Origin: Advenella sp. S44
GTDB lineage: Bacteria; Pseudomonadota; Gammaproteobacteria; Burkholderiales; Burkholderiaceae_B
Length of the DNA stretch: 44,262 nucleotides
Assembly (NCBI RefSeq): GCF_002810445.1
Contig: NZ_NEXS01000001.1
Coordinates: 795,837 to 840,098, forward strand
Reading direction: 5' to 3'
The notes beneath the pieces were generated by a model. That model saw only the letters and a program-made list of their open reading frames with translations. It was not told the origin of the DNA and did not search any database. The number at the start of each line of letters is the position of its first letter. Within the stretch, counting starts at the first letter, position 1. This document shows positions 23,421 through 32,741 of this stretch, piece after piece. The translations under genes were made by a program, and so were the position numbers.

Positions 23421-26400
23421 TTACCATACCTGGCCTGTCTGTAACTCAAAGCCCGCGGTTTCCCGCAGCCACTTGGCGTAGGCCTGGATGTCGGCGCGAC
23501 CGACAATCGGCTGGCTGACCAGCGCTTTTTCCTTGCCCGGCGGCACCGCCATCATATTGCCGTAGAACAGATCGGCGACTGTCAGTGCATGGGCGGTGGG
23601 CAGATCGCGCTCAATAAACTGCTCAATCTGCATGCGGCGGGCCCGGCCGAACTTGACGGACTGATGCTGCCGTATCGTAATGCCGTCCTCGGTCTCCATT
23701 TTGCGGTCCGATGCGAGCCGTTCGCTGGCCGGATTCTCTGGTTCATAGCCCATCAGGTTGTTGTGCACCAGCGGATTGCGGATGCGCAATAGATCCTGGG
23801 GCAGGGGCTTGAAGGCCACGCCCGCCGACAGTCCCTGTTGGTGCATCCATTGCAGCACCACATTGCCCAGATCACCGGGCAATCCGCTGGCATTAGCTAC
23901 CGATGTCGTGTCCGTATCCTGTATGGTGCCACCCATATCCGAGTGATTCCCCATAAAGCCGATCTCATGGAAGTTCTGACGATCGCTGCGGCCAATCGAA
24001 GTGAGCGGGAAAATATTGTTATGTTCGTTCAAAGCCACTGCATGAGCGACCCAGTGCCACGCCGGCGATACCCGGTAATCATGGGCGGCATTATTCGAGC
24101 CCAGCACGCCAAGCTGCGTTACTGTATCGAACAGGCCCATGAAACGAAAATCCAGACACGCGCTGACCGTCATTATTCCGTCCGGCGCTTGGCCATTTTT
24201 TGCGTATGGCGCGTGGATTTTTGCGGTGAACAGACCGTCGCGTGTCTGCTGCATGAGCAAATTGGCAAAAATGCGAGCGGCTGTCGCGCCTCGGGAAAAG
24301 CCAATAATATCAATTGGGATGTGACCACCGGCCGTTCTCAGCGAGGCAGCGTCAGTGAGCAGGGAGTCAATCAGGCGATGCATCTGCGTACGAACAATGC
24401 CAGGAACCGAGTCTGCGAACAAGGTGTCCAGCGGGCGCAGCAACACGCCCAGCGGCCCCAGAATATAAGGCCTTTGCAGAACGCTGGATACCCCATAGAC
24501 GGCCGGTTCAGCCAGCGCGTACACGCCATCGGTGGTGCCCGGACCGCCAATATAGTGCACCGGGCCAGAGTTGTACTGCTTTTGCAGCTTGTATACGTTG
24601 GAATTGCTCTGGCTTCCCTGGTTGCGGGTGCCGTCAAAGGCAAAGAGCAACAGGCCCAGCGGATCAATGTAGCGACGCGGCTGCCCGGCCGCATAACCCA
24701 GCGGATCCGCGCCCGGCAGGGGGCCTGCCGGATCAGGCTCCAGATAGTGACCAAAGGCAGGGTCATAGGTGCGATAGATATTATCGAACCAGCCTGTCGC
24801 TTCGTCTTCATACTGGCCCGGGTAGCGCAAGTGCAGGGTCAGGCGACTGACCATCGGCGTCATTTTGCCTTGTGGCTGTGGGCGGGCCAGCCAGACGGTG
24901 CGGGCCTGGCCGTCGGTGACAGCCAGAGGCAGCCCCAGGGTGTCTGTGTGAATAAAGTGCAGCGTCCCCGCAGGCTTCTTGCCCCGTATGTTGCGCAACG
25001 CGTCCCGTATCGACGTATTTATCGCATGCGCGTGCGGCGCAGCCGGGGCGTTCATGAATGCTGCCGCTGTCGCGTAATCGATAAAGGCGACGGGGATGGC
25101 GCCGGCATAAATGTACCGTCGCGAAATCGCGCCATTGGGCGGTATTCGCAGGGGCGCGCCGGTCTTGACAGACCAGTGGCCGACCACGCGGTTATCCTGG
25201 TAATAAAAGTGAGTCAATGCCTGCTCGTCGTGTCGGACAATACGCAGGCCCTGGCCATTGTGCAGGTTCTGCAGAATACGTTTGCCTTGTCGATAAACAC
25301 GCTCAAGGCGCCGGTTCGCTGCGTAGCGGGTGTGCACGCGATCGACCTGGACCGGCAAGCCGCTGGCGTCCCGCACGATACGGCTGCGATGTATGCGTTG
25401 GCCGTCAGAGCGGGCGATTGCGGCACCGCTGCTGTCCCAGGCATACCAGATGCGCCGCTTTCTGGATGCCACTGGTGCGCGGGCCAGTTGTCCGCCTGGG
25501 TAGCGGTAATGTTGTTCTATCATCCCTGCCAATCGCTGTTGCGGGCCGTACATATAATGTCGCTTAACGGCACTGGCAGCGGCCGGAAAATAATACGATT
25601 CGCCCAGTATCCGTCCGTCGCGCCCGACCTGCCGGTCCAGACCCAGGATTGGACGGATCGTGGCGCCGGCCAAGGCCACTACATGCAACTGCTGGCGACC
25701 GGACATATCGCGCCGGTACTGGGCGCGAACGTGATTGCCGAAGGCAAGCAGGCCATCCTTGTTGATTTGCAATACCGGATGGCGCTGTCCGCCGGCGTCT
25801 TCCCACACAATGGCACGCAATTGCCCTGCAGGCGTATACGTGTATTGCAGGCGACCGCCTTCGGGCAGCAAATGGATCACTTGACGGGCTTGCGGATCGC
25901 TCAGCAGGACATCTTCATAGTGAACCCTGTGCGGATTGTCTGGCGTTGCAGGTCTTGTGACGCCGATGCGCAACACGCCGGTGACCGGATTTGGCGCGTG
26001 GATTCGGGTTTCGTTGGGATGCGTCAGCGAAAAGCCGCCGGCTTGCGGATAACGGATGTGGGTTGTCGCCATCGATCCTGCCGCTGCCACTTCCCTCAAT
26101 AGGCGCAAGCGATACCGCGAATCATATTCGTATGACCAGCGCACCCCGTTTGCAAACGCCTGGGCGGTCGGTTGCCCTTTGCTGTTGTACCGGATGGTCT
26201 GATCACCTGTGAGCGCACTGCGCCAGAACGTGAGCAGACCCTGCGGGTTATAGTGCAACTGCAGGCCCGGCCAGAATCCGTCTGACAGGCTAAGCCGTGA
26301 AGGCATGCCGCCTGGATGGCGGGCAATGTACAGGCCATTGATGGATGACAGCCGCCCGTCTTCATAATACGTGGCCTGAAGGCCTGGGGCAGGGCAGCCA

Positions 26401-27659
26401 AGACAGCCATGCCCCTTGGCCGATTCGAGCAGATAGCGACCGTGTCTTTGTCGCCAGACAAACGTTGTGTCGTGCCCGTTTCCGTCTGCGATGCGCGTGA
26501 TTCCCCGTTGTGCGCCGATCGGCAGATAACTGAACAGTTGCGTTCCGACACCTGCCGGCTCATCGTGCATAACGGCGCGGATGACCCGGCCGCGCTTGTC
26601 ATAGTGCCATGTTCGAAGCCGGTAGAACGCCTGCGAAGGCAATAAAACGTTCTGGTTGCCGTTGACGGCGTGCAAAGCCCAGCCTGGTTTGTCTGTACCG
26701 GCCGCGCGGAACCTGCCTGTGCGCAAGGCAATGATACGCGTTAGCTGCCCTTTGCTGTCGAACACATGATTGGCGTTTTTTTTCTCGGGTGCCGCGACCG
26801 CCAGGCCCGTCAGCTTGAATGGATCTCCCGCCTGGTATGCCGGTTCGTACAGATATCGAGTTTGGCTGCCATCGGAAATGGTGGCAAAGGCCAGACGCGC
26901 CGCGACAGGATCGTAGGTGTATCGAATCGGTCCGTCAGGGGTATCGATTTGCGTCAGACGGATGCGCGCATTAAAGCGGGTGTCCCGATCGTAATGAAAT
27001 ACTAGGGTGTGGCCGGCCTGGCTGGTAACATGCCGGATTTTGTCGGCAAATATCGAGGCACGACTGTAGCGCTGAATTTGCAGGTGGTGGCGATCGACCC
27101 GGATTGACGAGAGCAAGCCTTGATGATCGAAGGTAAGGGTGCTGCCGTTAGGCCAGCGCCAGGTCCAGCCGCTGGCGGCAAGTTGCAGGCGGCCATAGGC
27201 CGGCGCATTGGCTGCTGCGACCTGACCGGCCCGAGGATTAAATGCGATACGCGAGCCGTCGGCCTGCGTGATTTGCAGGCCATTGGGTGTACGTTGCAGA
27301 TAAATGTCGAAATTGTGACGCCAGCCGGATCCCAGACCGAGGTCCGTGCGATCCATTGCGTTGTAGCTGCGAACCAGCAGCAATCCGTCTGCGCGCAAGG
27401 GCACATCCACTGCTTCCTGATATTTATTTCCGGTTGCCAGATTCACCGGATTGCCCGCGCCAATATTGACTACCGGCTCGTTGGCCTGCAAGGTATAAGG
27501 GCTGCTGCCAAGGCAAGGATTGGCGCTGCCAGGCGGACGCGGACATTGCGCATTATTTGCTTGTCCGGCAACGCCCTCTGAGGCAAAATAAAGCATGCCT
27601 GCAATTATTGCAATCCAGTGCGGGCGGACAGGAAATATTGAACGGGGACGGGTTCGCAT
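23421..27659 (-). CDS. Rhs-repeat protein with signal peptide and C-terminal DUF2235 (Tle1-like) lipase domain
   Basis: A 1412-residue polymorphic-toxin-like protein. A Sec-type signal peptide is visible (basic start, then WIAIIAGMLYFASEGVAG), followed by a DUF6531-like start (NIGAGNPVNLATGNKYQ) and long YD/Rhs repeats (about 60-950). The Rhs core ends with GQYEDEATGWFDNIYRTYDP, then DPLGL at 999-1003, the conserved boundary after which Rhs proteins are usually cut. The remaining 409 residues form an alpha/beta hydrolase: FAFDGTRNQ, IIGFSRGATAAR with nucleophile Ser1122, GLFDTV, and GNHSDMGG with likely catalytic His1239. DUF2235 domains occur in type VI phospholipase effectors. No VgrG, PAAR, Eag chaperone or recognisable immunity gene is adjacent. 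ATG at 27659 is preferred to the in-frame TTG at 27665. Confidence 0.88.
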   Translation of the reverse strand: MRTRPRSIFPVRPHWIAIIAGMLYFASEGVAGQANNAQCPRPPGSANPCLGSSPYTLQANEPVVNIGAGNPVNLATGNKYQEAVDVPLRADGLLLVRSYNAMDRTDLGLGSGWRHNFDIYLQRTPNGLQITQADGSRIAFNPRAGQVAAANAPAYGRLQLAASGWTWRWPNGSTLTFDHQGLLSSIRVDRHHLQIQRYSRASIFADKIRHVTSQAGHTLVFHYDRDTRFNARIRLTQIDTPDGPIRYTYDPVAARLAFATISDGSQTRYLYEPAYQAGDPFKLTGLAVAAPEKKNANHVFDSKGQLTRIIALRTGRFRAAGTDKPGWALHAVNGNQNVLLPSQAFYRLRTWHYDKRGRVIRAVMHDEPAGVGTQLFSYLPIGAQRGITRIADGNGHDTTFVWRQRHGRYLLESAKGHGCLGCPAPGLQATYYEDGRLSSINGLYIARHPGGMPSRLSLSDGFWPGLQLHYNPQGLLTFWRSALTGDQTIRYNSKGQPTAQAFANGVRWSYEYDSRYRLRLLREVAAAGSMATTHIRYPQAGGFSLTHPNETRIHAPNPVTGVLRIGVTRPATPDNPHRVHYEDVLLSDPQARQVIHLLPEGGRLQYTYTPAGQLRAIVWEDAGGQRHPVLQINKDGLLAFGNHVRAQYRRDMSGRQQLHVVALAGATIRPILGLDRQVGRDGRILGESYYFPAAASAVKRHYMYGPQQRLAGMIEQHYRYPGGQLARAPVASRKRRIWYAWDSSGAAIARSDGQRIHRSRIVRDASGLPVQVDRVHTRYAANRRLERVYRQGKRILQNLHNGQGLRIVRHDEQALTHFYYQDNRVVGHWSVKTGAPLRIPPNGAISRRYIYAGAIPVAFIDYATAAAFMNAPAAPHAHAINTSIRDALRNIRGKKPAGTLHFIHTDTLGLPLAVTDGQARTVWLARPQPQGKMTPMVSRLTLHLRYPGQYEDEATGWFDNIYRTYDPAFGHYLEPDPAGPLPGADPLGYAAGQPRRYIDPLGLLLFAFDGTRNQGSQSNSNVYKLQKQYNSGPVHYIGGPGTTDGVYALAEPAVYGVSSVLQRPYILGPLGVLLRPLDTLFADSVPGIVRTQMHRLIDSLLTDAASLRTAGGHIPIDIIGFSRGATAARIFANLLMQQTRDGLFTAKIHAPYAKNGQAPDGIMTVSACLDFRFMGLFDTVTQLGVLGSNNAAHDYRVSPAWHWVAHAVALNEHNNIFPLTSIGRSDRQNFHEIGFMGNHSDMGGTIQDTDTTSVANASGLPGDLGNVVLQWMHQQGLSAGVAFKPLPQDLLRIRNPLVHNNLMGYEPENPASERLASDRKMETEDGITIRQHQSVKFGRARRMQIEQFIERDLPTAHALTVADLFYGNMMAVPPGKEKALVSQPIVGRADIQAYAKWLRETAGFELQTGQVW

Positions 27660-27749
27660 GACCAATAACCTGAAAAATGCGTATCATCACCTTTGCAACG
27701 CATTTGCAGTGGGCGCAGTCCAATAAAATATCTAATGAGGAAAACCGTT

Positions 27750-28251: not shown

Positions 28252-29955
28252 TTATGCCACATCGCGCAAGGCGGCGCCTTCTTTTGCCTGCTGGTTCAGA
28301 TGGCGGTTGACCGCACTCAGGACAGCAACAAACGATGCGGTCACGATGTCCTTGTGAATGCCGACCCCGAAGCCCGTTGCCGATTCACCCAAGCGCAGTT
28401 CGACATAGCAGACAGCGGATGTTTTTTCGCCGGAGCCCATGGCATGTTCATGATAATCCATAAACCGAATGGGCAGGTTCAGTGCGTTGATGAAGGCCGA
28501 AATGGCGCCTTCGCCGCTTCCTTCCATCACTTTGAGCTGACCGTCCACTTCCAGTTCGGCGCGGATACTGAACTGGTCGCCGTTCTGGTCATCGCCCTTG
28601 CTGTTGATCTGGTGTCGCAACAGTTTCCACGGCGTTGTCTGCTTCAGGTACTCTTTTTCGAAGATGTCGAACACCGCGTTGCCATTGACTTCAGTGCCGG
28701 TTTCATCGGTGACGCGCTGGATGGCGCGAGAAAATTCGATTTGCAAGCGGCGAGGCAGGTTCAGGCCGCGTTCGTTCTCAAGAAGATAGGACACGCCCCC
28801 TTTTCCAGACTGGCTGTTGACCCGGATGACGGCATCGTAGCTGCGTCCGAGATCGGCCGGATCGATCGGCAGATAAGGCACTTCCCAGACAGCATCGTCT
28901 TTCTGCACGGCAAAGCCTTTTTTGATGGCATCCTGGTGCGAGCCCGAGAATGCGGTAAACACCAGATCGCCAGCATAAGGGTGACGAGGATGGACGGGCA
29001 ATTGATTGCAGTATTCTGCGGTGCGGCGCACATCGTCTATGTCGGAAAAATCCAGACCCGGGTGGACGCCCTGGGTGTACAAATTCAGAGCCAGGGTGAC
29101 AAGACATACGTTGCCCGTGCGCTCGCCACTGCCGAACAGGCAGCCTTCGATACGGTCTGCGCCGGCCATGACAGCCAGTTCGGCGGCGGCCACGGCGGTG
29201 CCACGGTCATTATGGGGGTGAACGCTGACAATGGCGCTTTCGCGATTATTGACATTGTTGCAGAACCATTCGATCTGGTCGGCGTACATATTCGGCGTAG
29301 TGGCCTCAATGGTCGCAGGCAAGTTGAATACGATCGGGTCTGTGGCAGTAGGCTGCCACACATCGGCCACGGCGTTGCATACCTCGACGACAAATTCGGG
29401 CTCGGTCGTGCTGAACACTTCAGGCGAGTATTCGTAGCGCCATTTGGTTTCAGGATGCCGGCTGGTGGCTTGCTTGATCAAGGCAGTGCCGGTCTTGGCG
29501 ATGTTTTTGACTTCGTCCTTGTTCATGTTAAAGACGATTTTGCGAAACGCCGGCGCGCAGGCGTTATACAAGTGCACCATGGCCTGGCGGGCGCCGGCCG
29601 CAGCCTCTACCGTCCGGTTGATCAGATCTTCGCGCGACTGGGTCAGCACAATGATAAGGACGTCATCGGGAATGTGGTTTTCTTCGATTAGAATGCGAAC
29701 AAAATCAAAATCTGTTTGGGACGCGGACGGGAAACCGACCTCGATTTCCTTGAAGCCGATCTTGACCAGATGTTTGAAAAAACGCAGCTTGCGCTCAATA
29801 CTCATGGGTTCGATCAGGGACTGGTTACCATCGCGCAGGTCGGTACTCATCCAGATGGGGGGATGTTCGATTCTCTTGCTGGGCCACGTACGTTCCGAGA
29901 AATCGCGCTCGAACGCCTTGAAAGGAATATATTTGGAAGCGGGGTTGGAAATCAT
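28252..29955 (-). CDS. leuA: 2-isopropylmalate synthase, long (fungal/actinobacterial-type) form
   Basis: First committed enzyme of leucine synthesis: condenses acetyl-CoA with 2-oxoisovalerate to 2-isopropylmalate. The 567-residue length and the start ([20 protein letters not shown], then [16 protein letters not shown]) mark the long LeuA branch. Catalytic barrel motifs are DLRDGNQ (metal and base) and [11 protein letters not shown] with the HxH metal ligands. From about residue 430 the C-terminal regulatory domain follows ([35 protein letters not shown]), which normally gives leucine feedback inhibition. The ribosome site AGGTG lies four bases from the ATG and is part of a possible hairpin. 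A 53-codon leucine leader peptide and competing hairpins precede it. Confidence 0.95.
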
Positions 29956-29958
29956 GAT

Positions 29959-30041
29959 GCACCTATTTTGGGGAGAATCCCGGTGCGAACAGACTGGATT
30001 TAAGCAGCGACGCCGGGATTCAGAATAATAAAACGGAATCC
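29959..30041 (-). promoter_or_regulatory. Competing RNA hairpins between the leucine leader and leuA
   Basis: Reading the minus strand: hairpin A pairs GGATTC (30041-30036) with GAATCC (30021-30016). Hairpin B pairs GAATCCCGG (30021-30013) with CCGGGATTC (29983-29975), a perfect 9-bp stem. Hairpin C pairs GCACC (29986-29982) with GGTGC (29963-29959) and would hide the leuA ribosome site. A and B share bases, and B and C share bases, so each excludes its neighbour. A further pair, TGTCGA with TCGACA (30093-30088 and 30066-30061), lies just after the leucine codons. No U-run follows hairpin B, so control may act on translation rather than by classical termination. Confidence 0.55.
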
Positions 30042-30081
30042 TTGTGGCTTATACACGGGCTGTCGAACTGCCACGAACGCT

Positions 30082-30243
30082 CTAGGCTCGACAACCGGTC
30101 GCTAGCAGTAGCAGCAGAGAAGAAGAAGAAGCAACAGCAGAACGCGTTGCGTTGGACGTAGCGGCAGCCCACAGCTTTCCCGTGGTGCAAACGGATTTGC
30201 GACCGGAAAAAGCGTTGCGAGAAGATGCAGACTGGCTGTTCAT
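30082..30243 (-). CDS. Putative leucine leader peptide controlling leuA (attenuator)
   Basis: A 53-codon frame upstream of leuA in the same direction. It starts MNSQSASSRN and ends SSSSLLLLLATGCRA then stop; codons 43-47 are five successive leucines (CTG CTG CTA CTG CTA), including the CTA codon that is normally rare in GC-rich genomes. A leucine run just before the stop, followed by mutually exclusive hairpins and then leuA, is the hallmark of amino-acid attenuation: ribosomes stalling at these codons when leucyl-tRNA is scarce would change folding of the downstream RNA. There is no ribosome site before the ATG, and the best promoter places the transcript start at or next to the ATG, so the leader may be translated from a leaderless message. 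Serine-rich content before the leucines has no assigned role. Confidence 0.75.
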   Translation of the reverse strand: MNSQSASSRNAFSGRKSVCTTGKLWAAATSNATRSAVASSSSLLLLLATGCRA

Positions 30244-30249
30244 TCTTTA

Positions 30250-30278
30250 ACTATAAGAAAAATTACACCGGCGCGCAA
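30250..30278 (-). promoter_or_regulatory. Probable promoter of the leuA leader transcript
   Basis: On the minus strand, TTGCGC (30278-30273), a 17-base spacer and TATAGT (30255-30250). The transcript start expected seven bases beyond the -10 is 30243, the first base of the leader-peptide ATG. The -35 overlaps the terminator stem of the upstream membrane-protein gene. Confidence 0.55.
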
Positions 30279-30317: not shown

Positions 30318-31328
30318 TCAGGTAATGGTGTGCTTGACCTCATCGCGCGCGGGCCGAAGATGGGTGTCATCGGACCGTCCGATGGTCGGTTGCGACTGTT
30401 CAGAGGTGGAAACGGTTGGGCGATCCTGCGCTTGATCTTCCGACAGGACCGGCTCATCTTGTGTTGGCGTTACAACGTCCGGCGTTGCCCGGACAGTATG
30501 GACGGGCTCGGTCGCCTGGTCTTGTTCCTTAATGTGGTGGCGGTTCGCGGCAGTTGCAACTTCGCCAGTTTTAGTTTGGGCAGTCGTGGCTTCTGCATCT
30601 GGCGGCTGACCGGACGAACTGACAAATGGAGTATCGCTGGCTGCGGTAGCGGGGACATCGGCCGTCGCGACCGTCGGGTGCGAATCGGCCAATACCGGCT
30701 CGGTTGTGGAAGTCGACTGCACAGCAGACCCACCAAGCGATGGATCCCGCTCTTCTGTTTGTGCCAGTGTTGCGGCGATCCGGCTGTCTGCGGCGGTCAC
30801 GGTGCCCGCGCCCAACAGGCGTTCCTGGTCGCGAATCTGTGCCAGCTTGCTGACCCGGTTATTGTCCAGTTCGTCCTTGGTTGTTTTCAGGTTGCCGATA
30901 TTGATGGGCTCGGAACGATCGCGCCAGACCCAGCCGAGCACATCCCGGCCTTCAGGTGACAGACTCTGGATAAGCTGGCTCGCCGTATCTGCAGGAACTG
31001 TCTTGTAGGCGGCGCGTTCGACACTGCCGCTATACCAGGCGCTCAGAAAAAAGTAGACTATCAGAGTGCCCAGTAACACCACGCCCCACCAAAGGTAGGT
31101 GTTAATGCTCTGTAAGAAGGCGACCAGTTGTTCGTTGAATTTGTTCAGAAAAGCGTAGTCCTGTGCTGCGCCGAATTCGAGAATACTGGCGGCAACCCAG
31201 AGCCAGACGACGATTGTGACAATAATCACGACCGCACGCATTATAATCCTTGGGGTAGCCAGCTTAAGCAGCGTTTTGCTTACCAGTCTGGCATCATTTT
31301 GCTGAACCGCGGCATTGCTGTATTTCAT
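30318..31328 (-). CDS. Hypothetical two-helix membrane protein with a long acidic disordered tail
   Basis: Not recognised as a known family. The 336-residue product has two membrane helices (about residues 30-50, MRAVVIIVTIVVWLWVAASI, and about 78-98, WWGVVLLGTLIVYFFLSAW), a short conserved-looking segment (SPEGRDVLGWVWRDRSEPIN near 130), a possible coiled stretch (KTTKDELDNNRVSKLAQIRD), and then about 165 residues rich in Thr, Ser, Ala, Asp and Gln with low complexity. The ATG at 31328 is preferred; an in-frame ATG at 31355 would overlap the divergent rpoN start. Only 18 bases separate it from the rpoN start codon. Function unknown. Confidence 0.7.
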   Translation of the reverse strand: MKYSNAAVQQNDARLVSKTLLKLATPRIIMRAVVIIVTIVVWLWVAASILEFGAAQDYAFLNKFNEQLVAFLQSINTYLWWGVVLLGTLIVYFFLSAWYSGSVERAAYKTVPADTASQLIQSLSPEGRDVLGWVWRDRSEPINIGNLKTTKDELDNNRVSKLAQIRDQERLLGAGTVTAADSRIAATLAQTEERDPSLGGSAVQSTSTTEPVLADSHPTVATADVPATAASDTPFVSSSGQPPDAEATTAQTKTGEVATAANRHHIKEQDQATEPVHTVRATPDVVTPTQDEPVLSEDQAQDRPTVSTSEQSQPTIGRSDDTHLRPARDEVKHTIT

Positions 31329-31346
31329 AGGTATTCCAAATCCGAT

Positions 31347-32741
31347 ATGCGTCATGCGTTAGAACTTCGAACCGGCCAGCAGTTGGTGCTGACCCCGCAA
31401 CTGCAACAATCCTTGCGCTTGTTACAGTGTTCTGCGCTGGATCTCCAGGCAGAACTGGCACAGGTGCTGCAGGACAACCCCATGCTTGAACTTGTCGATA
31501 ATAACCAAATATCGGAAGATAGTACAAATACAAGCGAAAACGATGCCGAGCTTTTACAACAGGACTGGGCTTCCCAAACCGGGCAGAAGTCGCGCGATGA
31601 CGAATATTTCCAGCCCGAAGCCGCCGTCGGCTTGTCGCTTTCCGAGTATCTGCGAGAGCAGTTGCGATTGACTCATGCTTCCGAACGCGATGTCAGCCTG
31701 GCCGAATATCTGATTGAAGAACTGGACGACAACGGCTACCTGACGTCCAGCTTGCAAGAGATAGCGGCATTGTTTTCGGAAGAGGCCAATGTTACCGAAG
31801 ACGAGCTGGCCGTCGCACTGCGGCTTTTGCAGTCCTGTGATCCGGCCGGCGTGGGGGCGCGCACCCTGTCCGAGTGTCTGCTGTTGCAGCTGAATGTATC
31901 GACGCTGGCCGACCCGCCCACCCCAGAGGTGCTGGCCTGTGCCCGCCTGATTTGCGAACATGGTCTGGAGGCCCTGGGACGCGCCGATATGGCGCAATTG
32001 CGATCCGTCACTGGCGCCGATATTGACCGGATCCGCCAGGCCCATGCGTTGATCCGCCAGCTGGATCCCAGGCCCGGCAAACAGTTCAGTACGCCCACGG
32101 CCGATTATGCGGTGCCCGATGTGTTGGTGCGCAAAATCAATGGCGAATGGGTTCTGGCCATTAATCAGGCAGTCATGCCCTCGTTGCGTATCAGTGAGGG
32201 GTATGAAACGATGATTCGTCGCCTGGGCAAAGACGCCGGATCCGGCATGAGCGAACAACTGGTGGCTGCCAAGGGATTTATCCGTCAGGTCAGTCAGCGC
32301 TTTACAACGATCCTGGACGTCTCGCGGGCCATTATGGACAAGCAGCGCGATTTTCTTGAGTACGGAATGGCGCGTCTGCAGCCGCTCACCTTGCGTGATG
32401 TCGCCGACGCCGTGGGTATGCACGAATCGACAATTTCCAGGGCGACAACGCAAAAATTCATTGCGACCCCCCACGGGGTGTTTGAATTGAAACGTTTTTT
32501 CGGTTCCGGGGTGGCGACCGATAGCGGCGCAAATGCTTCCGCAACGGCGGTGCAGATTCGCATCCGCAATTACATCCAGGCCGAACCTGAGGGCAAACCT
32601 CTGTCTGACAGCCGCCTTACTGATATGCTGGCGCAGGAGGGCATTACAATCGCGCGGCGTACAGTGGCCAAGTATCGCGAAGTCCTGGGTATTCCGTCTG
32701 CATCCCTGCGCAAGGCCCGGGCCAGCCTTAACCAGGAGTAG
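31347..32741 (+). CDS. rpoN: RNA polymerase sigma-54 factor
   Basis: A 464-residue sigma-54. Region I at the N-terminus (LRTGQQLVLTPQLQQSLRLL, then QAELAQVLQDNPMLE) receives activator signals; an acidic region II follows (about 50-100); the core-binding domain covers about 110-260; the helix-turn-helix TLRDVADAVGMHESTISRAT is near 352-371; and the RpoN box ARRTVAKYRE is near the C-terminus. The ATG at 31347 matches the usual family start; the upstream extension of the frame is not family-like. In most proteobacteria rpoN lies with lptB, hpf and ptsN; here its neighbours are a divergent membrane protein and bfd. It may be a relocated or second copy. Confidence 0.93.
   Translation: MRHALELRTGQQLVLTPQLQQSLRLLQCSALDLQAELAQVLQDNPMLELVDNNQISEDSTNTSENDAELLQQDWASQTGQKSRDDEYFQPEAAVGLSLSEYLREQLRLTHASERDVSLAEYLIEELDDNGYLTSSLQEIAALFSEEANVTEDELAVALRLLQSCDPAGVGARTLSECLLLQLNVSTLADPPTPEVLACARLICEHGLEALGRADMAQLRSVTGADIDRIRQAHALIRQLDPRPGKQFSTPTADYAVPDVLVRKINGEWVLAINQAVMPSLRISEGYETMIRRLGKDAGSGMSEQLVAAKGFIRQVSQRFTTILDVSRAIMDKQRDFLEYGMARLQPLTLRDVADAVGMHESTISRATTQKFIATPHGVFELKRFFGSGVATDSGANASATAVQIRIRNYIQAEPEGKPLSDSRLTDMLAQEGITIARRTVAKYREVLGIPSASLRKARASLNQE

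Follow-up and report, generated by a model that had tools for sequence, protein, structure and literature searches.

A conserved leucine-codon leader with two covarying stems precedes leuA in Advenella and other Betaproteobacteria

Results

A leader rich in leucine codons lies upstream of leuA

We analyzed a window of 44,262 nucleotides from Advenella sp. S44 (contig NZ_NEXS01000001.1). On its minus strand the window encodes a 2-isopropylmalate synthase, whose nearest named relatives are the enzymes of A. incenata, Advenella sp. FME57 and A. kashmirensis (94-96%). The gene is preceded by a short open reading frame and a candidate promoter, as follows.

28252..29955, minus strand: leuA, 2-isopropylmalate synthase, 567 aa, TIGR00970 type (open reading frame and family match)
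30082..30243, minus strand: leader ORF, 53 codons, MNSQ...SLLLLLATGCRA, stop TAG at 30084-30082 (open reading frame; similar ends at 78 of the 99 distinct loci)
30103..30117, minus strand: five leucine codons, CTG CTG CTA CTG CTA, the last CTA at 30105-30103
30250..30255, minus strand: -10 hexamer TATAGT, 17 nt after the -35 and 6 nt from the leader ATG at 30243
30273..30278, minus strand: -35 hexamer TTGCGC (61 of 77 loci have TTGNNN 16-18 nt further up than the -10 register)

The first-pass annotation of this DNA had described a 53-codon leader with five consecutive leucine codons six codons ahead of its stop, and these features are found where it placed them, on the minus strand. Six sense codons separate the leucine run from TAG, and the leader peptide of the window ends in SSSSLLLLLATGCRA. 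When the window was scanned with Rfam release 15, nothing matched at the gathering score; up to E 5, the sole match in the leader region was to a snoRNA, well below threshold (E 0.85). Taken alone, the complete leader has an unremarkable MFE (z -1.35).

Two neighboring genes were noted. A 345-aa ORF upstream of the leader (30318-31355, minus strand) had no match in a Pfam search. One ORF away from leuA, a 1414-aa RHS-repeat protein (23421-27665, minus strand) has a C-terminus that matches a T6SS Tle1-like phospholipase domain (Pfam PF09994, E 7e-20).

The leader end and its codon choice are conserved

We collected 110 leuA loci, which contain 99 distinct upstream regions. The same leader end is found in 78 of the 99, in agreement with the first-pass proposal that a leucine leader precedes leuA. 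Sixteen of the 21 regions without it are Pseudomonas, other gamma, Curvibacter or actinobacterial loci. The five others are Taylorella (L028) and a near relative (L093), where no such leader was seen upstream of leuA, and the variants L055 (Massilia), L100 and L107, which still carry the RNA core S1/S2 described below.

The last codon of the leucine run, at position -8, is CTA in all 78 motif-bearing loci. The glycine codon is GGT and the stop codon TAG in 78 of 78, and the alanine codon is GCC in 77 of 78. At the isoleucine position, seven codons for six residues occur across the same loci. Synonymous sites are as fixed as coding sites, so what is constrained is the RNA and the choice of codons, not the peptide.

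Across 72 distinct leaders, CTA makes up 215 of the 398 leucine codons (54%) that fall within the final 19 sense codons. It accounts for 5 of 2805 leucine codons (0.2%) in the leuA genes behind these leaders and for 36 of 1137 in 28 long ORFs of the window. Rare leucine control codons near the leader end, as expected of a classical leu transcription attenuator, are found here. In several divergent members the leucine run is shortened, and some have few leucine codons. The stop codon is also shifted in divergent members, lying before S1 in L157, within S1 in L154, and past the UAG site in L100, L151, L153, L155 and others.

Other leaders were seen upstream of leuA. In Pseudomonas (L059, L061, L064-L066, L068-L072 and L075), 9 of 11 loci carry another conserved short ORF, approximately MKTAHTLILLRQHACLRLVSPRLRG, and the covariance model of the S1/S2 core (R1, below) had no match in the seven Pseudomonas loci searched. 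By eye, yet another leucine-rich ORF end, roughly LLLxGLLRLAR, precedes leuA in L180, L184, L186, L187 and L189, which come from other genomes of the order, so several unlike leaders precede leuA genes of the TIGR00970 type.

Two covarying stems form the conserved core

Two stems, S1 and S2, are encoded at the end of the leader ORF and beyond it.

30086..30096, minus strand: S1 5' arm GGUUGUCGAGC, 6 nt past the last leucine codon
30070..30074, minus strand: S2 5' arm GUGGC, within the S1 loop
30058..30068, minus strand: S1 3' arm GUUCGACAGCC, with a C-G pair replaced by U-A in the Advenella group
30044..30048, minus strand: S2 3' arm GCCAC, beyond S1

S1 comprises 11 bp and S2 5 bp. Their arms follow the order of an H-type pseudoknot, with the S2 5' arm one base ahead of the S1 3' arm. 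These stems were absent from the first-pass annotation, and they are conserved far more widely than the hairpins A, B and C that it proposed. In an alignment of 63 close sequences (A1), S1/S2 is 99.1% paired, two pairs show double changes, and the CCUAGNG loop positions are invariant. In a second alignment (A3) of 41 chosen sequences that include divergent members, 98.3% of the S1 and S2 cells are paired. Double changes occur there at 7 of 16 pairs, in 20 cells, compared to 1.6 pairs and 1.9 cells in shuffles, none of 500 being as high. When the partner was slid by 1-3 columns, pairing was 24-60% and only 1-4 pairs had double changes. Both stems are compensated in L154, where S1 reads GGUUAACUGGC:GUCAGUUAACC and S2 reads CUGGC:GCCAG. 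Across 82 distinct sequences, every one retains 10 or 11 of the 11 S1 pairs.

Two helices in pseudoknot order at the leader end is a criterion that we took from the actinobacterial LEU element (see Discussion), and both helices covary. Judged by this conservation, the conserved device is S1/S2 and not the A-B-C series. The last leucine codon lies 5-6 nt from S1 in 60 of 71 beta loci. L3, which separates S1 from S2, measures 4-9 nt in most of the 82 distinct sequences; in four from Bordetella it is 31-34 nt. With the 9-nt L3 of the window, both S1 and S2 may form. At the 4-5 nt of Cupriavidus a full pseudoknot is sterically doubtful, so S1 and S2 may alternate there.

The core is found upstream of LeuA in a subset of genomes

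We searched 300 genomes of the window's order with R1, accepting matches at E <= 0.001 that also passed stricter filters. Matches were found at 21 places in 20 genomes, and a LeuA-coding stretch follows in 21 of 21. In an equal number of genomes drawn from the order, 102 have a LeuA match at 1e-100 or better, so most LeuA genes of the order are without a recognizable element. The Advenella genome itself has one good R1 match; a second, at E 0.36, does not lie near LeuA. In Gilvimarinus (L073, 1348-1418) the match was weak (E 0.96).

We also placed the element on a LeuA tree of 72 rows, where the label "no element" stands for no R1 match in the loci or genomes searched, or no motif. The element label needs 6 changes on this tree, compared to 23.6 in shuffles. 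Its distribution is mostly one clade with losses (the Taylorella group and L172), and the element is also found in a second clade (L155, L158 and L162) and on a long branch (L160). We conclude that the Advenella leuA leader is a real, conserved leucine-linked RNA element; its leader ORF, codon choice, covarying stems, promoter geometry and SD complementarities are visible in the sequences themselves.

Two further loci differ in their arrangement. In one Alcaligenaceae genome a second leuA-like gene (L163, G347:C6; match to residues 1-328) has S1/S2 and hardly any leucine codons. In Neptuniibacter (L063), a GC-rich hairpin and U-tract resembling a classical terminator were seen by eye before leuA.

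Promoter geometry points to a leaderless start

The first-pass annotation proposed that the promoter TTGCGC-17-TATAGT starts RNA at the leader ATG. The sequence and spacing are present as described, and the predicted RNA start in the window is the A of this ATG; a stricter promoter scan of the window found nothing and did not report the pair. In 60 of 62 loci outside the Cupriavidus group, a hexamer in the -10 register ends 6-9 nt from the ATG, with TTGNNN 16-18 nt further up, which puts the predicted RNA start about 0-3 nt ahead of the leader ATG (the exceptions are L042 and L103). This count is descriptive and not blind, since the patterns were drawn from the same sequences and the ATG was chosen by its nearness to them. 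Among the 15 Cupriavidus-group loci, 12 have no -10-register hexamer and 3 have one 14-16 nt away.

The window's group has TATAGT as its -10 hexamer, a second Advenella group has CATAAT and Pelistega has TAATAA. Most other loci have TTGACT or TCGACT after TATG, a poor -10 by itself; should TATGTT be the actual -10, RNA would start about 6 nt ahead of the leader ATG. A start at 0-3 nt or at about 6 nt leaves little room for a Shine-Dalgarno (SD) site of the leader, and a good SD match was found for 3 of 77 leaders compared to 37 of 77 leuA genes. The constant promoter-ATG spacing across diverged genera speaks for a leaderless start, and the Advenella ORF is thus predicted to be a leaderless reader ORF, which we regard as probable. 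The first-pass suggestion of a leaderless ORF finds its sole support in this geometry. Read-through from the upstream ORF (30318-31355) into the leader is possible. For comparison, leaderless mRNAs are reported to make up 4.67% of primary starts in Cupriavidus metallidurans (PMC7563307).

In many Alcaligenaceae loci, TATGTTTGACTA upstream of the leader ATG is conserved beyond the usual -10 element, and some of these bases may have a different role.

Hairpins A, B and C are largely confined to Advenella

Between S2 and leuA, the window can form three hairpins that had been proposed to exclude one another in series.

30016..30041, minus strand: hairpin A, GGAUUC:GAAUCC, arms 30041-30036 with 30021-30016
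29975..30021, minus strand: hairpin B, GAAUCCCGG:CCGGGAUUC, 9 bp (DNA arms GAATCCCGG at 30021-30013 and CCGGGATTC at 29983-29975)
29959..29986, minus strand: hairpin C, GCACC:GGUGC, arms 29986-29982 with 29963-29959, over the leuA SD AGG at 29964-29962

This description holds for the window. A and B share bases 30016-30021, B and C share 29982-29983, hairpin C spans the AGG of the leuA ribosome site, and hairpin B is directly followed by TCCCC and not by a U-tract. Because B and C are mutually exclusive, B could free the leuA ribosome site.

Conservation of the three hairpins is mixed. Among 10 Advenella and Pelistega sequences, C is kept in all ten (with one G-U). Hairpin B retains 9 pairs in six of them and 7 in three; Pelistega has 6, one of which is kept by a compensatory change. 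Hairpin A has one mismatch in each of four. GAAUCC/GGAUUC-like arms resembling hairpin B were seen by eye in Achromobacter and Bordetella. As a general switch the A-B-C series was rejected, since the full set is found in Advenella alone, with weaker pairing in Pelistega.

The leucine run can pair with the leuA ribosome site in some genera

Perfect complements between the leucine run and the leuA ribosome binding site are 7-11 nt long in 15 of 15 Cupriavidus-group loci (shuffled mean 4.7). They are 8 nt, and longer with a bulge, in 8 of 8 Achromobacter-group loci (shuffled mean 4.4), and 4-7 nt in the Bordetella group. A complement of at least 8 nt was found in 0 of 10 Advenella-group loci (0-5 nt) and 0 of 37 other loci (0-6 nt). 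This exact-complement test, on a longer slice of the ribosome binding site, was added after a duplex energy test had given no signal in Cupriavidus (mean z -0.12); the remaining groups gave none either. By energy, the Achromobacter-group duplexes range from -24.9 to -32.2 kcal/mol, with 0 of 200 shuffles as low in all 8 loci, and four of the eight Bordetella-group loci rank at 3-5 of 200 shuffles. Pairing between the leucine run and the SD was rejected for the window, where it is absent by both tests. Two other partners for the SD, the 3' arm of S2 and the region of the stop codon, were inspected by eye in the sequences; such pairing was inconsistent and was dropped.

We also calculated the cost of opening the leuA SD with pseudoknot-free folding. 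In the window this cost is 5.7 kcal/mol when the leader is free, 5.4 with a ribosome on the leucine run and 5.9 with one at the stop. In Achromobacter (mean of 8), the cost falls from 10.7 to 7.6 kcal/mol with a footprint on the leucine run and to 7.5 with one on the stop codon. Since the stop-codon footprint lowers the cost equally, this folding effect does not single out stalling. With the leucine-run footprint the cost rises in the second Advenella group, from 3.7 to 5.1 kcal/mol, and in other groups it is nearly unchanged. The first-pass idea that the leader acts on translation is therefore supported in part: the SD can be sequestered, and the shortest variants leave little room for a terminator, but constrained folding of the window gave no coupling.

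Discussion

A proposed ribosome-read leucine switch

We lean toward the interpretation that this element is a cis-acting leucine switch for leuA that is read by the ribosome. Leucine sensing by a stalled ribosome is likely, and action on translation is the output that we infer. RNA would start at or a few bases from the leader AUG, and the ribosome would load without an SD site. It would then encounter a run of leucine codons that closes with the rare CUA. The position of mRNA entry relative to the A-site is known from ribosome footprint sizes, and with CUA in the A-site, S1 would begin 6 nt ahead, at approximately this entry point. When charged Leu-tRNA is scarce, the ribosome would stall at CUA, hold the leucine run and keep the S1/S2 region from its resting state. 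When leucine is ample, it would run through the leader and leave.

The state of the S1/S2 region would in turn govern access to the leuA ribosome site, so that translation rather than termination would be regulated. In Cupriavidus and Achromobacter, the uncovered leucine run could pair straight with this site. In Advenella, hairpin C would cover the site and hairpin B would compete with C, with S1/S2 presumed to act through the choice between them.

Alternative explanations

Classical transcription attenuation would make S2 or a later hairpin an intrinsic terminator, with S1 as its competitor. S1 and S2 do overlap in one stretch, and a T-rich tail follows S2 in 7 of 15 Cupriavidus-group loci. 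These seven are among 19 terminator-like sites found between leader and leuA in 76 loci, where 13.8 were expected. Overall the sites are slightly above chance and not clearly enriched, and an intrinsic terminator was rejected as the general output. The terminator scan of the window found none after S2 or B; its one match, at 30150-30131, falls within the leader. In the four shortest variants (L155, L160, L161 and L162), 62-68 nt separate the UAG position from leuA, S2 ends 28-33 nt before the leuA ATG (the L161 start is extrapolated), and no U-tract was seen by eye after S2. We consider classical attenuation unlikely. The first-pass view that this is not a textbook E. coli leu terminator is borne out by the terminator scan and by the Rfam scan of the window at the gathering score.

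Alternatively, attenuation could be Rho-dependent, with Rho binding the C-rich RNA that separates S2 from leuA whenever it is left unshielded by a ribosome. C exceeds G in this stretch in 71 of 76 loci (mean 0.319 vs 0.219). However, composition is weak evidence, and the four shortest variants offer only their 28-33 nt; we find this explanation rather improbable. We would say much the same of a trans-acting factor, protein or ligand, that binds S1/S2, in the manner suggested for the actinobacterial LEU element, and makes the leucine codons incidental. The invariant CCUAGNG loop positions of the 63 sequences would suit such a factor, and mutations in the Streptomyces leuA leader are described as a misfit to classical attenuation (Seliverstov et al. 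2005, PMC1262725). The extreme preference for CUA at a fixed distance from S1, however, would have no role if a factor were responsible.

Finally, although the end of the leader peptide is strikingly conserved, we rejected stalling by its C-terminus (IGCRA) as very improbable, since synonymous positions are frozen (GGT, TAG and GCC), the isoleucine position varies in residue, and divergent members change both stop and peptide while compensatory changes keep S1/S2.

Comparison with known leaders

The ribosome-read switch that we favor can be compared with the actinobacterial LEU element, a leuA leader with a leucine run, a pseudoknot and a base stem between leucine run and SD (Seliverstov et al. 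2005, PMC1262725). The mechanism was unclear to those who described it; they suggested a binding protein and doubted a role of the codons (PMC1262725). Both elements precede leuA of the same enzyme type and have a leader ORF with a leucine run. In both, S1 is about 11 bp and lies mostly 5-6 nt past the last leucine codon, the S2 5' arm is 0-3 nt from the S1 3' arm, and the S2 3' arm is downstream. Of 31 actinobacterial loci that were fetched, we compared 29. We found this order of stems in 27 of the 29 (shuffled 2.9) and in 65 of 71 beta loci (shuffled 2.4). The spacer between leucine codon and S1 is 5 nt in 21 actinobacterial loci and 5 or 6 nt in 60 beta loci. The Cupriavidus and Achromobacter groups also share the complementarity of leucine run and leuA SD.

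In contrast, Advenella is without a stem between leucine run and SD (longest complement 5 nt, 10 loci), and the last leucine codon is CUA here but the anti-SD-like CUU in 25 of 29 actinobacterial loci. R1 had no match in the 29 actinobacterial loci, L078 giving only E 3.1 elsewhere in the locus, and sequence homology with the actinobacterial elements was rejected because R1 found none. Exchange with Actinobacteria was also rejected, as the actinobacterial enzymes form their own group in the LeuA tree. Since the window has no base stem and no sequence match, we do not assign it to the LEU element. The layout of the window element resembles that of the LEU element, and the two may act in a similar way.

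The leu attenuator of E. coli and Salmonella is the Rfam family Leu_leader. It too has a leucine leader with rare CUA control codons; unlike it, the element described here has no clear U-tract terminator and no Rfam match. CUA is the control codon in Salmonella leu, where according to work cited in PMC1183508 a change to CUG weakens control and lowers sensitivity. The Shewanella leuA attenuator as described in PMC2659441 also has a leader with leucine codons and competing stems before leuA, but it works by terminator and antiterminator, whereas the Advenella window has no terminator.

A leaderless attenuator ORF is reported for S. meliloti, where rnTrpL begins with the ATG of trpL (PMC7298713). 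For C. glutamicum, a title cited in PMC4046766 reports formation of the ilvBNC leader without a ribosome site. These leaders concern other amino acids or phyla, and the trpL start is reported while that of Advenella is only predicted. In the literature that we searched, which covered few subscription papers, no betaproteobacterial leuA leader of the S1/S2 kind was described.

Significance

A broader reading, which we offer tentatively and think less probable than not, is that the LEU element is one form of a cross-phylum device that arose at least twice or is very old. Such a device would consist of a leaderless leader, a rare leucine codon at the foot of a pseudoknot, and a stalled ribosome that acts as a plug to keep the leucine run or the fold from hiding the leuA site, on platforms that differ by genus. 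If true, one sensor would be joined to platforms that vary by genus (a stem between leucine run and SD, or a B/C switch), as in riboswitches. An element with the same layout, a different sequence, and CUA in place of CUU helps to separate codon sensing from pairing, and its presence in easily handled betaproteobacteria makes the question testable. The element is also a candidate for a conserved leaderless leader in beta-proteobacteria, and it represents an RNA family without a match in Rfam release 15.
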